Shown here in pieces: positions 45,166 through 50,490 of a stretch of 64,000 nucleotides of DNA. The position numbers were made by a program, and so were the translations under genes. The DNA is from Rhodococcus rhodochrous (GTDB lineage Bacteria; Actinomycetota; Actinomycetes; Mycobacteriales; Mycobacteriaceae). The number at the start of each line of letters is the position of its first letter. The stretch's first letter is position 1. The DNA lies in assembly GCF_014854695.1 (NCBI RefSeq), contig NZ_CP027557.1:4092001-4156000 (forward strand), given 5' to 3'. The notes beneath the pieces were generated by a model. That model did no database searches. It had not been told where the DNA came from and saw only the letters and a program-made list of their open reading frames with translations.

Positions 45166-46260
45166 ATGGCGGTGCACGAACGACACGGGCGGCTCTCACC
45201 GAAGGAACTCTCACCGAGGAGTCTGTGGACCCGTTACCGCGCGTCGGGAGCGGATCTGCCCTTCGGGAATCCGCTCGCCGCGCACGGCGTCGCGATGGAG
45301 GGTTACTTCTGGCGCTTCACCCAGCCCGGAACCGGCCGCGTCGTCATCGCCCTGTGCGGGGTCAACCGTGCGGACGACTCGGGAGGGCCCGGCTCGCACT
45401 GGGCGACCCTCGGCCTGGCCGCCCATCCCGGGGGTTTCCTGCGCACCGCCGCGCATCCGGTGGCCGCTGCCGATCCCGATCGGCTCGGCGCGTCGGCCGG
45501 CGACGTCTTCTGCGGCGACAGCGAACGCGTGTGGATGGATCTCGGCGACGACGCCCGTCTCGACATCCGGTTGTCGGATCTGCGGTCCTGGCCGCGACGC
45601 CGCTTCGGCGCGTCGAGTGTGTTCCATTCCGTCCCCGGCCTCAACCAGTACTGGCATTCCTGGCTGCTCGGCGGCCGGGTGGAAGGGCACGCGATTCTCG
45701 GCGACGAGAAGTGGGATCTGACCGGAGCCCAGGTCTACGGCGAGAAGAACTGGGGCAAGGGCGGTTTCCCCGAGTCGTGGTGGTGGGGTCAGGCACAGGG
45801 ATTCGCCGACCTGCAGGCGTGTGTGGCGTTCGCCGGCGGGCAGGTGCATTCGGGTCCACTGCGCACGGAGGTCACGGCGGTCGTCGTCGCACTACCGGAC
45901 GGGCGCATCGTGCGGCTGGGCAATCCCGTCACATCCCCGGTCCGGGCGACGGTCACCGACGAGAGCTGGAACCTGCGTGGTCGCAATGCCCGTTGGAGCG
46001 TGGAGATCTCGGGAAGCTCACCCCTCGGAGCGGCGCACGTCCTGCCGGTCCCCCTGCCCGCGGAACGACGGAACGTCGCCGGTTCGATCGAGCATCTCGG
46101 CGGTCGCATGACCGTGACGGTCCACGAACGCGGGAAACTGGTGTGGGCCGACGAATCGCACTCGGCCGCACTCGAACACGGCGGGCTGGACCGGGCCCGG
46201 GCGGAACTCGACCGGCGGGGCGCCGCTGCGGATGCGACGGACGCCCCACCGAGCGTGTGA
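45166..46260 (+). CDS. Tocopherol-cyclase-like lipocalin-fold protein
   Basis: 364 residues. The hallmark is QVYGEKNWGKGGFPESWWWGQAQ at residues about 188-210, the EKNWG..FP..WWW motif of the tocopherol cyclase (VTE1) family; GLNQYWHSWLLGGRVEGHA precedes it, as in that family. Actinobacteria do not make tocopherol, so it must act on another prenylated or lipid molecule, or simply bind one. No signal peptide is evident. It is divergent from the MFS transporter and converges with the ROK regulator. A second protein of probably similar fold, DUF2804, lies 3.2 kb away. Confidence 0.75.
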   Translation: MAVHERHGRLSPKELSPRSLWTRYRASGADLPFGNPLAAHGVAMEGYFWRFTQPGTGRVVIALCGVNRADDSGGPGSHWATLGLAAHPGGFLRTAAHPVAAADPDRLGASAGDVFCGDSERVWMDLGDDARLDIRLSDLRSWPRRRFGASSVFHSVPGLNQYWHSWLLGGRVEGHAILGDEKWDLTGAQVYGEKNWGKGGFPESWWWGQAQGFADLQACVAFAGGQVHSGPLRTEVTAVVVALPDGRIVRLGNPVTSPVRATVTDESWNLRGRNARWSVEISGSSPLGAAHVLPVPLPAERRNVAGSIEHLGGRMTVTVHERGKLVWADESHSAALEHGGLDRARAELDRRGAAADATDAPPSV

Positions 46261-46275
46261 ATCCGACGGGATCGC

Positions 46276-47601
46276 TCAGAGTTCGGTGCGCTTCATCGCC
46301 GCGATGGGATCCGAGAACAACGAGCTGAGCGAGACGACACCCGCAGCGTGGGCCTGCACCCGGTTGCCGAAGCCGGTGATGCGGATGTCCTTGCGCGGCA
46401 GGGTGGTCGACGCGGCGAACGCGCGGGCGACGTGCGGAACCGCGGCCGGGTACTCGGTGAAGGCCTGTCCGCCGAGAATCACGCGGTCGGGATTGAACAG
46501 GTCGCGCAGCATTCCGACGGTGCGGCCGAGCACGGTGGCCCGCTCGACGAGCAGACCGTGAGCGACCTCGGAACCGTCCCGCGCGAGGCGGTAGAGCGAC
46601 TGAATGGTGTCGTCGCCGTCGGCGAAGATGCCCTCGGCCACCGCGCGCTGCACGACCGCCCGATCGCTCACCGTCGCTTCGAGGCAACCCGTGCCACCGC
46701 ACGAGCACCGGGCCGACGAACCGGTGGGGAAATGCGTCACCGAACCCGGACCGCCGGCAGGGGTGTGCACCTTGCCGTCGAAAGTGATTGCCACACCGGC
46801 CGTCTCCCGAACGTAGAAGTACAGGCCGGTGCCCTTGGCCTCGGGGGCGTCGCGATCGGGAGTGAGGAGCAGCTCGGAGGCGGCCATCGCCTCGACGTGC
46901 GCGGCCACCGAGACCGGAAGCCCCATACCGCCACCGACGATCGCGCCGACACGGGCGTCGACCCAGCCGAGTCGCGGGTGCGTCACGACGGCGGTGTTCG
47001 AGTCCACCCGTCCGCCGAGTGCGACGCCGACCCACAACGGGGTGCGGCGGTGCCACCGTCCGGCAAAGGCCTTGGCGCTCGCGGTGATCGACGCGAGCGC
47101 GGCGTCCTGGTCGCCGGTGGGCGTGGGGACCTCGACGGCGCCGATGATGCGACCGCGCAGGTCACTGGCGACGATACCGGTGGTGACGGCACCGATGTGG
47201 ATGCCGACCGTCAGGTACCGCTCGTGGTCGACCTCGACGGGAACACGCGGCCGGCCGACGGCGCCGGGTTCGGTCAGGTCGGCGCGCTCACGCAGCAGAC
47301 CTGCCGAGAGCAGGGCCGACACCTGGCGGTTGACGGTGGCGATGCTCGCCCCGGTGACCTTCGCGATCACGTCGCGCGAGACGGGGCCGCGATTGGCGGC
47401 GACACGGAAGACCGACGCCCCGGTGCCGTCGGCGATACGCAGGTCCGGCGGAACGATCCTGACCGGGCTCGACACACGGGAGGTGCGGGGACGGACGACC
47501 GTCGCACGCGTGGATCCACGGACGGCGGAACCGGTGGCGCGACGAGGCGCGGACGACCGCGAGGGAAGGGAAACGGACGGCGAGAGAGTGGGAACCGACA
47601 C
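46276..47601 (-). CDS. ROK-family transcriptional regulator (Rv0485-like)
   Basis: 441 residues from GTG 47601, with aagga about eight bases before it. An N-terminal basic tail of 50 residues is followed by a winged HTH (VFRVAANRGPVSRDVIAKVTGASIATVNRQVSALLSAGLLRE) and a ROK sugar-kinase-like domain with the zinc motif CSCGGTGCLEA. The kinase catalytic Asp region reads LGGRVDSNTAVVTHP, so activity is doubtful and the domain probably only senses. Rv0485 in M. tuberculosis is reported to control a PE/PPE pair; here no such genes are near. A Cys-rich mini-ORF precedes it. Confidence 0.87.
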   Translation of the reverse strand: MSVPTLSPSVSLPSRSSAPRRATGSAVRGSTRATVVRPRTSRVSSPVRIVPPDLRIADGTGASVFRVAANRGPVSRDVIAKVTGASIATVNRQVSALLSAGLLRERADLTEPGAVGRPRVPVEVDHERYLTVGIHIGAVTTGIVASDLRGRIIGAVEVPTPTGDQDAALASITASAKAFAGRWHRRTPLWVGVALGGRVDSNTAVVTHPRLGWVDARVGAIVGGGMGLPVSVAAHVEAMAASELLLTPDRDAPEAKGTGLYFYVRETAGVAITFDGKVHTPAGGPGSVTHFPTGSSARCSCGGTGCLEATVSDRAVVQRAVAEGIFADGDDTIQSLYRLARDGSEVAHGLLVERATVLGRTVGMLRDLFNPDRVILGGQAFTEYPAAVPHVARAFAASTTLPRKDIRITGFGNRVQAHAAGVVSLSSLFSDPIAAMKRTEL

Positions 47602-47727
47602 GGCGCTGATCCTTGGCTGCTGATCCGGACGTGATGACCGGAGAACGGGCGGGAGACGATCGACGCACCGAGACCCGACGTGGAGAACACGATCGGAGAC
47701 GGACCCGCACGACGAGGGCGGGATCGG

Positions 47728-47746
47728 TGCGGAGTTACTTTCCGCA
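47728..47746 (-). promoter_or_regulatory. Hairpin overlapping the end of the polycysteine mini-ORF
   Basis: In the transcript, TGCGGA and TCCGCA pair around a seven-base loop that contains the stop codon. The 5' arm is made of the last Cys codon and the Gly codon of the mini-ORF. A ribosome paused on the cysteine codons would cover this arm, which is the geometry of an attenuator. Confidence 0.5.
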
Positions 47747-47842
47747 GCAGCGACAACAGAGTTCGCGCGCCAGAGGCAGCCGTGATCCCAGCGCGGCGGT
47801 CACATAGGTGACCCGCGGTGCGGAGGTGTGGCCGACTGACAT
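47735..47842 (-). CDS. Leaderless 35-residue mini-ORF ending in CCRCC (candidate Cys attenuator)
   Basis: ATG 47842 to TAA 47735. The peptide begins MSVGHTSAPR and ends LARELCCRCCGK: four cysteine codons in five. A -10 TAGTTT (47855-47850) ends seven bases before the ATG, and TTGGAC sits 18 bases further up, so the transcript should start at the ATG itself. Leaderless polycysteine mini-ORFs of this type regulate downstream genes by cysteine-dependent ribosome stalling in mycobacteria. Here the next gene is the ROK regulator, 133 bases on; mycothiol gene mshA is further downstream on the same strand. The peptide itself probably has no function. Confidence 0.65.
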   Translation of the reverse strand: MSVGHTSAPRVTYVTAALGSRLPLARELCCRCCGK

Positions 47843-47849
47843 GTCGATC

Positions 47850-47879
47850 AAACTATCGCCCGAACCGCGTCGTGTCCAA
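47850..47879 (-). promoter_or_regulatory. Promoter of the polycysteine mini-ORF
   Basis: On the minus strand TTGGAC (47879-47874), an 18-base spacer and TAGTTT (47855-47850) are followed by seven bases and the ATG. It lies between the stop of the TetR gene and the mini-ORF. Confidence 0.55.
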
Positions 47880-47882
47880 TCC

Positions 47883-48560
47883 TCACCGATCCGGTGGGAA
47901 ACCTTCCTGCACGTCCCCGCGTGCGTGCGCGGTCTCCGCCGACACCGGGGCGAGCAGCAACGCCTCCCACGCGTCGACGAGCGCCGCGAGTTCTGCCGTG
48001 GTGGGTGATTCGCCTGCACGGTGACACCGCGCCAGCGCACCGACGGTGCCGGAGTAGACCAGCCGCAGACGCTGCCCGGCGATGTCGTCGGGCAACGGCC
48101 CGAGGAGGGTCCGTAGCGCGGTGTCGGACCGGCGGCCGCTCTCGGTTCCCGTCGGTCCGGTGACGCGGAAGCACTCGGCGAACCGGTCGTGGTTCGACAG
48201 CCGGTCGAGGAAGGCGACGTAGTGGTTGTTGCGGCCGAGCGTGCCGGCCAGGGGGCGGATGATCACCCACAGCAGGTCGCGTACCGAGAGAGTCTCCCGC
48301 GTCCGCAGCATCTCGGCGAGGAGCGCTTCCCGTTGGGAGTTCAGGGCGGGCAACCGGTGGGAGAAGACCGCCTCGAGCAGCCCCTCCTTGGTGCCGAAGT
48401 AATAACCGACCACCGACGAGTTGTGCTGTCCGGCGGCCTTGCGGATGTCGGCGAGGGTGACCCCGTCGTATCCACGGCGGGCGAAGAGCCGCTCGGCGGC
48501 TTCGACGAGCCGGATCCGGGTCTGTTCGCCCGAACTGTATCGACCGCGGATGGTGGTCAT
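47883..48560 (-). CDS. TetR-family transcriptional regulator
   Basis: 225 residues. The HTH (about residues 14-60) reads RIRLVEAAERLFARRGYDGVTLADIRKAAGQHNSSVVGYYFGTKEGLLEAVF, a standard TetR N-domain. The C-terminal ligand domain is helical and not recognisable. It is divergent from the SDR gene at 48643, with 82 bases between, and that enzyme is its most likely target. An 8-bp inverted repeat (GCCGCACG ... CGTGCGGC) in the gap may be the operator. Downstream on the same strand lies the polycysteine mini-ORF with its own promoter. Confidence 0.9.
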   Translation of the reverse strand: MTTIRGRYSSGEQTRIRLVEAAERLFARRGYDGVTLADIRKAAGQHNSSVVGYYFGTKEGLLEAVFSHRLPALNSQREALLAEMLRTRETLSVRDLLWVIIRPLAGTLGRNNHYVAFLDRLSNHDRFAECFRVTGPTGTESGRRSDTALRTLLGPLPDDIAGQRLRLVYSGTVGALARCHRAGESPTTAELAALVDAWEALLLAPVSAETAHARGDVQEGFPPDR

Positions 48561-49400: not shown

Positions 49401-49436
49401 GGTGGTGGGCGCGGCGAGGCGGTCGCGCCCACCACC
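49401..49436 (+). terminator. Hairpin downstream of the SDR gene
   Basis: Perfect 13-bp arms, GGTGGTGGGCGCG (49401-49413) and its complement (49424-49436), around a ten-base loop, nine bases after the SDR stop codon. There is no T tract. Confidence 0.7.
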
Positions 49437-49455
49437 GTCGGTACTGTCACGGGAT

Positions 49456-50490
49456 ATGCGCCAACGACGCCTCGCGCCCGGACCGTTGCTCGACGACGAC
49501 GGGAGGCTCGCCGAAGCCGGCTGGAGCACCTCCGAGGTCCGCACCTACGACCGGCAGCGGGTCGCAGCGTCACGGTTCCGCATCAAGGAGTGGGACTACT
49601 ACTGCGTCCTGGCCGACAGCGAGGACGGACCGTTCGGGATCGCGCTGACCGTCGCCGACAACGGTTACGTCGGGCTCCTCGGAGTCAGCGTGCTCGACCT
49701 CGCGGGTCGCTCCGAGACCACCGAGAACGCCCTCGTCCCCTTCCCGCTCGGCCGGATGCGCCTGCCGCGCACCGCCGACGGCGGCGATGTCGTCGTCCAC
49801 CACGGCGGACTCCGCATCGAGTACCACCACGAAGGAACGGCCCGGCGGCTGGTCGTCGACCATCCCCGTTTCGGCGGCGGGCGCGGACTGTCCGGAGAAC
49901 TCGTGCTCACACAGCCGTCCGACGATCGGATGGTGATCGCGACACCCTTTCCCCGCGCACCGAAGGCCTTCTACTACAACCAGAAGATCAACTGCCTGCC
50001 CGCGCAGGGCACGGTCACCGTGGATGGGCGGGAGCTGGTCTTCGATCCCGCCACCGCCTTCGGGGTGTTCGACTGGGGTCGAGGGGTGTGGACCTACGAC
50101 AACACCTGGTACTGGGGGTCGGCCTCGGGGATCCACGAGGGTGTGCGATTCGGGTTCAACATCGGCCACGGCTTCGGCGACACCACCGCGGCGAGCGAGA
50201 ACATGCTCTTCCACGACGGTGTGGCGCACAAGCTCGACCGCGTGCACTTCCATCTGCCCCGCGGCACCTACGACGGGGCCCCGTGGCGGTTCACCAGCAA
50301 CGACGAGCGGTTCGAGATGGAGTTCGAACCGATTCTCGACCGCGCGGCCGACGTGAACGCCCTGCTCGTGCGGTCCACGCAGCACCAGGTCTTCGGACGG
50401 TTCACCGGCAGCGTCGTGCTCGACGACGGCACCCGGCTCGAGATCGAGAACCTGCTCGGCTTCGCGGAGGAGGTCCGCAACCGCTGGTGA
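49456..50490 (+). CDS. DUF2804 family protein
   Basis: 344 residues from ATG 49456 (MRQRRLAPGPLLDDDGRL), the usual DUF2804 start. Conserved blocks are RIKEWDYYCVLADSE, FYYNQKINCLPAQG, FDWGRGVWTYDNTWYWGSASG and the C-terminal QHQVFGRFTGSVVLDDG. The family is predicted to adopt a lipocalin-like barrel, in the same broad group as AttH/CrtC and tocopherol cyclase, but no enzyme activity is established to my knowledge. No signal peptide or membrane helix is seen. TACTGT ends eight bases before the ATG. It converges with murB, 16 bases away. Confidence 0.85.
   Translation: MRQRRLAPGPLLDDDGRLAEAGWSTSEVRTYDRQRVAASRFRIKEWDYYCVLADSEDGPFGIALTVADNGYVGLLGVSVLDLAGRSETTENALVPFPLGRMRLPRTADGGDVVVHHGGLRIEYHHEGTARRLVVDHPRFGGGRGLSGELVLTQPSDDRMVIATPFPRAPKAFYYNQKINCLPAQGTVTVDGRELVFDPATAFGVFDWGRGVWTYDNTWYWGSASGIHEGVRFGFNIGHGFGDTTAASENMLFHDGVAHKLDRVHFHLPRGTYDGAPWRFTSNDERFEMEFEPILDRAADVNALLVRSTQHQVFGRFTGSVVLDDGTRLEIENLLGFAEEVRNRW

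Follow-up and report, generated by a model that had tools for sequence, protein, structure and literature searches.

The window, a stretch of 64,000 nucleotides from Rhodococcus rhodochrous (contig NZ_CP027557.1), carries on its minus strand a gene for a ROK-family regulator (46276-47601; Pfam match PF00480). This gene starts with a GTG codon at 47601 and is preceded by AAGGA (47610-47614), which is likely to be its own Shine-Dalgarno sequence. Upstream on the same strand is a 35-codon ORF (47842-47735, with the stop codon at 47737-47735; MSVGHTSAPRVTYVTAALGSRLPLARELCCRCCGK) that ends in CCRCCGK and whose stop is 133 nt from the ROK GTG. A likely -10 element, TAGTTT (47850-47855, minus strand), is located 7 nt before the ATG at 47842, which suggests a leaderless start. 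The last codons and the stop are covered by a hairpin (47728-47746, minus strand) in which TGCGGA (47746-47741, codons Cys33-Gly34) pairs with TCCGCA (47733-47728). A first-pass annotation of this DNA had described the mini-ORF, the TAGTTT at seven bases, four Cys codons in five, the TGCGGA/TCCGCA hairpin, the ROK regulator 133 bases downstream and, further along the same strand, mshA; all of these were found on the minus strand, the last as a TIGR03449 match at about 42855-41647.

A TetR-type gene on the strand of the leader ends at 47883, 40 nt upstream of the leader, and an SDR gene upstream of the leader is encoded on the opposite strand. A plus-strand gene (45166-46260) sits between mshA and the ROK gene. 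This gene (Tocopherol_cycl, weak DUF2804 match) and another at 49402-50490 (DUF2804) are related and flank the ROK-TetR-SDR region. The ROK gene is taken here as the orthologue of Rv0485, an equivalence that we presume from the shared position of the leader and from the gene order of M. tuberculosis.

From the spacing of the -10 element we infer that transcription starts at the leader ATG. The motif TANNNT is found 6-8 nt before an in-frame start at 106 of 107 distinct ROK-linked loci when several in-frame starts are allowed per locus, as compared with 331 of 35,678 single ATG or GTG positions (0.93%) in loci of the same kind. No sigma-70 consensus promoter was found at the locus. Because the same-strand TetR-type gene ends only 40 nt upstream, a promoter upstream of that gene could also read through into the leader. 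Two Rfam matches within 45-50 kb (Guanidine-II, 21.1 bits with a gathering score of 32; MEG8_2, 26.3 bits with a gathering score of 45) fall below their gathering scores and were rejected as chance.

Conservation of the leader at ROK loci

Leaders were sought by position alone, as ORFs of 8-65 codons with an ATG or GTG 6-8 nt after TANNNT, lying in the 480 nt ahead of approximately codon 45 of the ROK gene and with no residue motif. This search used 47 of 52 ROK loci (five weak matches, L026-L030, were left out), and L182 was dropped for having too little upstream sequence. A leaderless ORF is present upstream of the ROK gene at 43 of the 46 remaining loci, one at each, and all 43 ORFs contain Cys; one of them (L025) is a fragment whose ORF is doubtful. 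No such ORF was found at the other three of the 46 loci (L022, L024 and L178). Because the search asked for no residues, the conservation that it reveals is independent of Cys content. In 29 of the 43 leaders found by position, the ORF contains the ALG block, which belongs to the part of the leader that is kept, VTYVTxALGxRLPxxRxLCC. In the window this conserved block spans codons 11-30 (VTYVTAALGSRLPLARELCC; 47753-47812, minus strand).

Searching with the leader alone leads back to the same gene: a ROK gene is present at 79 of the best 80 of 112 related places in the genome collection. The gap between leader and ROK start ranges from 70 to 303 nt (median 116) at ROK-linked loci. The position of the leader, its leaderless spacing and its Cys codons are conserved in Rhodococcus, Rhodococcoides, Prescottella, Antrihabitans, Gordonia, Williamsia, Millisia and Mycobacteroides, and the same features are found in genera taken for Nocardia (g39, presumably) and Mycobacterium. 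A first model matches 351 of 401 family genomes at E-values up to 1, many of these matches being weak, and in an order-wide sample 9 of 200 genomes match, all in the window's own family and one of them the window's genome. These loci are related, and the counts are not independent. Judged by these comparisons, the ORF is a conserved leader and most likely a real regulatory one. In a record titled Kitasatospora arboriphila (L156), the leader peptide is the same as that of Williamsia muralis (L157) and a ROK gene lies downstream; this record is perhaps a contaminating contig or a mislabelled genome.

Conservation of the Cys codons in close relatives had been set as a test of the first-pass annotation, and it holds for the pair Cys29-Cys30 (47753-47758, minus strand). 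Among 110 leaders, Cys is absent at codon 30 in only three (L143, L179 and L181). The Cys codons after Cys30 are variable, and the leaders of R. ruber and R. aetherivorans (L114 and L117) end in LCCR. Counted from codon 29, two Cys are present at 36 of the 110 loci and a single one at another, so that 37 of 110 leaders fall short of a run of three or more, which is therefore not a general feature. The stress that had been laid on four Cys in five codons does not carry over to the relatives, as this arrangement occurs at 12 of 110 loci. It had also been proposed that the CC codons and the hairpin be aligned across Rhodococcus; the CC codons proved to be conserved and the hairpin did not. A perfect 6-bp stem at the ORF end is found at 10 of 110 loci including the window, and six of these are the window and its nearest relatives (L001-L006). 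Perfect 6-bp stems can be placed twice in the 152-nt stretch as against a mean of 0.36 in 500 shuffles, and the end hairpin alone is weak evidence.

Other genera have unrelated leaders at the same place. In genus g45, the leader at the ROK site is short, contains ACCC and lacks the conserved block (10 of 10 loci). This genus is probably Mycobacterium, given that PPE proteins exceed the cut-off in nine of ten of its genomes. Two of these genomes have 79 and 111 matches, G381 has none, and other genera show a few PPE matches as well. Three further genera have dissimilar Cys leaders at this position (L019, L023 and L166), ending for example in MCRMCCMHCC or SSCCRMCCRPS. It seems that leader sequences turn over and that the leaderless spacing and the Cys codons are retained. 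Because leaderless spacing and Cys codons are common to all leader types, they look like the functional minimum.

The ORF is probably a leaderless cysteine-responsive leader ORF, that is, an attenuator, of the ROK gene. Its Cys codons stand near the end of a short ORF, as in polycysteine leaderless attenuators of the mycobacterial type. Control of the ROK regulator by such a leader, the central claim of the first-pass annotation, is supported by the conserved position, the spacing, the Cys codons and a published orthologous locus.

Constraint on the peptide, the cysteine codons and the palindrome

Selection acts on the leader at the level of the peptide. In codons 16-28, pN/pS is 0.15 with pS at 0.51, so that synonymous change is free there, as against a pN/pS of 0.92 in codons 5-9; at the two Cys codons pS is also low (0.07). 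These values are from 3,829 of 5,995 locus pairs, namely those that are 70-95% identical. Because the residue pattern used to gather the 110-locus set fixes G19, R21, P23 and R26 and restricts certain other positions, pN is understated there and part of the invariance is built in. This pattern does not affect codon choice, Cys30 or the position-anchored set, and the same block emerges from a first alignment in which sequences were collected by Cys content and selected afterwards for similarity.

Arrest peptides of the TnaC and SecM type have conserved residues just before their stall codons. The leader shares this feature, with the same caveat about the gathering pattern; it differs in having Cys codons at the presumed stall site, and its stall is a prediction. 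It is possible, though we think it somewhat improbable, that ribosome stalling is brought about by the conserved block, as in TnaC, and triggered by the Cys codons or by the state of a thiol or metabolite. In that case the sensor would be the peptide and not simply the supply of Cys-tRNA. The low pN/pS of codons 16-28 favours this explanation, as does the placement of the block, which directly precedes the Cys pair and would sit in the exit tunnel. The block is also kept in three further copies of the leader at transporter genes (see below). However, the Cys leaders that the presumed Mycobacterium genomes carry at this site lack the block, and the gathering pattern itself lowers pN.

The Cys pair is constrained in its codons as well. 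Cys29 is encoded by TGT in 108 of 109 cases and Cys30 in 102 of 107 (Cys codons of the 110 loci). The ROK genes of 107 loci contain 253 TGC codons and five TGT codons in their first 1,260 nt. In eight other genes or frames of the window TGT is rare too (TGC 18, TGT 5), a milder contrast than in the ROK genes. Unrelated leaders from 11 loci of two other genera (ten of g45, one of g41) contain TGT 36 times and TGC nine times. Another leaderless Cys leader, VQNRHELMLTRRRAVDLCRLGGCCCPC, is found in the window's own genome (L215; C1 at about 854.2 kb, minus strand), with TAAACT 7 nt before its GTG and its CCC written TGT TGT TGT; its stop lies 689 nt before a rhodanese ATG, and another small gene would fit between the two. 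The use of a TGT pair in the leaders, set against TGC in the ROK genes, may reflect selection for a rarer, perhaps slower, Cys codon at the sensing site.

A second stem, absent from the first-pass annotation, lies within codons 10-15 (GGTCAC-N4-GTGACC; GGTCACCTATGTGACC, 47813-47798, minus strand) and may act as an RNA stem-loop or as a DNA site. Val11 is almost always GTC and codon 14 almost always GTG (109 of 110 loci in either case), although the ROK genes use both (GTC 2398 and GTG 1759 of 4608 Val codons). The stem appears in the consensus folds of two clades; in these folds the palindrome varies too little to show any covariation.

A tentative proposal, to which we give slightly less credence than to peptide arrest, joins these elements in a two-part sensor. 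The nascent peptide VTYVTxALGxRLPxxRxL in the exit tunnel and the rare TGT pair at the decoding site would be synchronised by an early RNA pause hairpin at codons 10-15. Such a sensor would be a portable module, which in one actinobacterial lineage would stand in place of the plain poly-Cys leader of its relatives and would have been copied to a sulfatase/transporter locus.

The palindrome could instead serve as an operator in the DNA shortly after the start, perhaps bound by the ROK protein in autoregulation, and protein binding would then explain part of the conservation. The constancy of the two Val codons and the retention of GTCAC-N4-GTGAC in the three transporter copies agree with this idea, which we nevertheless hold to be unlikely. 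The tighter site, GTCACNTANGTGAC, occurs once in the window's genome, so that there is no wider regulon with the exact site, and the palindrome was rejected as a regulon operator. None of the 11 loci with other leader types has GTCAC-N4-GTGAC, peptide selection runs on past the palindrome, and an RNA stem accounts for it equally well. The looser GGTCAC-N4-GTGACC is found at six places in the genome as against one for a reversed control. The site GTCACNTAYGTGAC is present in 82 of 151 family genomes, and at two such sites away from the leader (L196 and L197) no leader ORF of this kind was found.

It is very unlikely that the ORF encodes a working Cys-rich small protein that acts in trans by binding a metal or a thiol. 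Purifying selection on the peptide would fit such a protein, but beyond Cys30 the C-terminal Cys cluster lacks conservation, the leaderless Cys ORFs retained in other genera do not encode this peptide, and no NCBIfam family matches the leader. That the ORF arose by chance and has no function, for which its shortness and the missing family match might speak, can be practically dismissed, as none of 40 dinucleotide-type shuffles of the window yields such an ORF with its four Cys in five, and the position-only search recovers a leaderless Cys ORF at 43 of 46 ROK loci. In the 64-kb window itself, a rule requiring TANNNT, a spacing of 6-7 nt, an ATG or GTG and 10-60 codons returns two leaderless short ORFs, and four Cys in five are found only in the leader ORF.

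A proposed model for cysteine-responsive control

The proposed model for the cysteine-responsive leader is as follows. Transcription would start at the leader ATG, and a 70S ribosome would translate the leader at once. When Cys-tRNA is plentiful, this ribosome would run through to the stop codon. When cysteine is short, it would stall on the two rare TGT codons, 29 and 30, with the conserved peptide VTYVTAALGSRLPLARE in the exit tunnel, perhaps strengthening or tuning the stall. The stalled ribosome would prevent the leader RNA from pairing back onto the ribosome-binding site of the ROK gene, shield the gap from Rho, or both, and the ROK regulator would be made when sulfur is short. In the mycobacterial polycysteine attenuators, RNA structure is reportedly what hides the downstream ribosome-binding site, and a ribosome at the Cys codons is said to relieve this.

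Predicted folding is consistent with unmasking to a limited degree. With a ribosome on Cys29, the predicted openness of the ROK Shine-Dalgarno sequence increases from 0.316 to 0.395 (92 of 107 loci), as compared with 0.324-0.327 for three control placements at the 92 loci; the site becomes more open at 41 of the 92 loci and less open at 13. A ribosome at the stop codon opens it as much as one at Cys29 (0.393). The duplex between leader and ribosome-binding site has a predicted energy of -13.9 kcal/mol in native pairs versus -12.9 kcal/mol in species-swapped pairs (lowest of 30 swaps, -13.3 kcal/mol). The native duplex is stronger than the mean of its own shuffles at just 54% of 96 loci, and pairing with the ribosome-binding site is equal or better for other windows of the leader. 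The signal is weak against both swaps and own shuffles, and the tail of the leader and the ribosome-binding site were rejected as a coevolved pair. The consensus folds of two clades contain no anti-Shine-Dalgarno pairing conserved by covariation. A downstream ACAACA, the complement of TGTTGT, was rejected as a conserved partner, being present at 8 of 110 loci.

The gap between leader and ROK gene (47602-47734, minus strand) contains no site resembling an intrinsic terminator, and none was found in the whole of 47500-48000, such that the locus does not have the layout of a classical trp-type attenuator. The gap contains TTTT at 15 of 107 loci. Its base composition (C 0.38, G 0.27) says little on Rho, because the start of the ROK coding sequence is likewise richer in C than in G (C 0.43, G 0.29).

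A possible link to sulfur supply and relation to known leaders

Copies of the leader also occur at loci of a kind that suggests sulfur scavenging: a second copy is present in 3 of 80 genomes (L190, L193 and L194), where it precedes binding-protein and permease genes that are divergent from a Sulfatase gene. The binding protein is identified as SBP_bac_5 by Pfam in two of the three copy loci (L073 and L079). At L190 the permease is confirmed, the binding protein is assigned by likeness and a TauD-type dioxygenase gene is also present. All three copies keep the conserved block. Because these copies adjoin sulfatase and transporter genes, a general tie to sulfur is better supported than one to mycothiol, and sulfur supply is a natural candidate for the signal on the evidence of gene neighbourhoods. 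The first-pass annotation had linked the regulator to cysteine or mycothiol supply by way of mshA; the mycothiol part of this link is unsupported, since mshA is about 3.4 kb away beyond a plus-strand gene, and mshA was rejected as a target on account of the opposite-strand gene between it and the ROK gene. Among sulfur genes of the window's own genome, the loci of three of three NIR_SIR, 12 of 21 rhodanese and two of two sulfatase matches were scanned, and one site has a leaderless Cys leader.

The first-pass annotation knew of no leaderless Cys leader upstream of a ROK regulator, but the arrangement is already in print for M. tuberculosis and M. smegmatis: conserved leaderless small ORFs with noted Cys enrichment lie upstream of cysA2, Rv0485/Msmeg_0932 and nirA (Shell et al. 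2015, PMC4633059, Fig 7). The ORF shown there at Rv0485/Msmeg_0932 (Fig 7B) resembles the Rhodococcus leader in lying upstream of the presumed orthologous regulator, in being leaderless and in its enrichment in Cys. The presumed Mycobacterium leaders studied here differ in containing ACCC without VTYVTxALGxRLPxxRxLCC, the block being a feature of Rhodococcus and relatives. The Rv0485 orthologues of M. marinum and M. bovis are listed with a high 5'UTR-to-CDS ratio (PMC4128351).

Polycysteine leaderless sORFs carry out cysteine-responsive attenuation in mycobacteria (Canestrari et al. 2020, doi 10.1111/mmi.14498, as summarised in PMC9031893 and PMC13236596), and six Cys-regulatory ORFs are predicted in M. 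tuberculosis, their G/C skew being lowered by the Cys codons (Smith et al. 2022, PMC9094748). As summarised in those sources, the attenuators of Canestrari et al. are like the leader described here in being leaderless and in having contiguous Cys codons; in the Rhodococcus leader, by contrast, near-invariance is limited to two Cys codons, and selection acts on a peptide block. Cys leader peptides were also predicted in 2005 for the cys operons of Mycobacterium and Propionibacterium and for cbs of Bifidobacterium (PMC1262725). In the passages of that paper on these leaders, they appear as short ORFs with Cys runs near the stop and no terminator hairpin, for which Rho is suggested; the same passages differ from the present case in including no ROK locus and in saying nothing on leaderless starts.

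The place and the principle of the leader are thus already published, and it is a variant of a known leader type. The literature searched, which did not extend to the main attenuator paper, yielded no account of a peptide block of the Rhodococcus type, of the TGT rule or of the copies at sulfatase/transporter loci. The part not found in print consists of the constraints on peptide, codons and palindrome together with the copies at a sulfur locus.

The Rhodococcus leader would widen the range of leaderless cysteine attenuation beyond mycobacteria to the remainder of the family. It suggests that sensing cysteine may involve more than consecutive Cys codons, as the rare synonymous codon and the peptide next to it both appear to be selected. 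An Rv0485-type ROK regulator would be tied to sulfur supply by two lines, the Cys codons of its leader and the copies of that leader at sulfatase/transporter loci, and this tie makes the ROK regulon directly testable in a Rhodococcus that is harmless.
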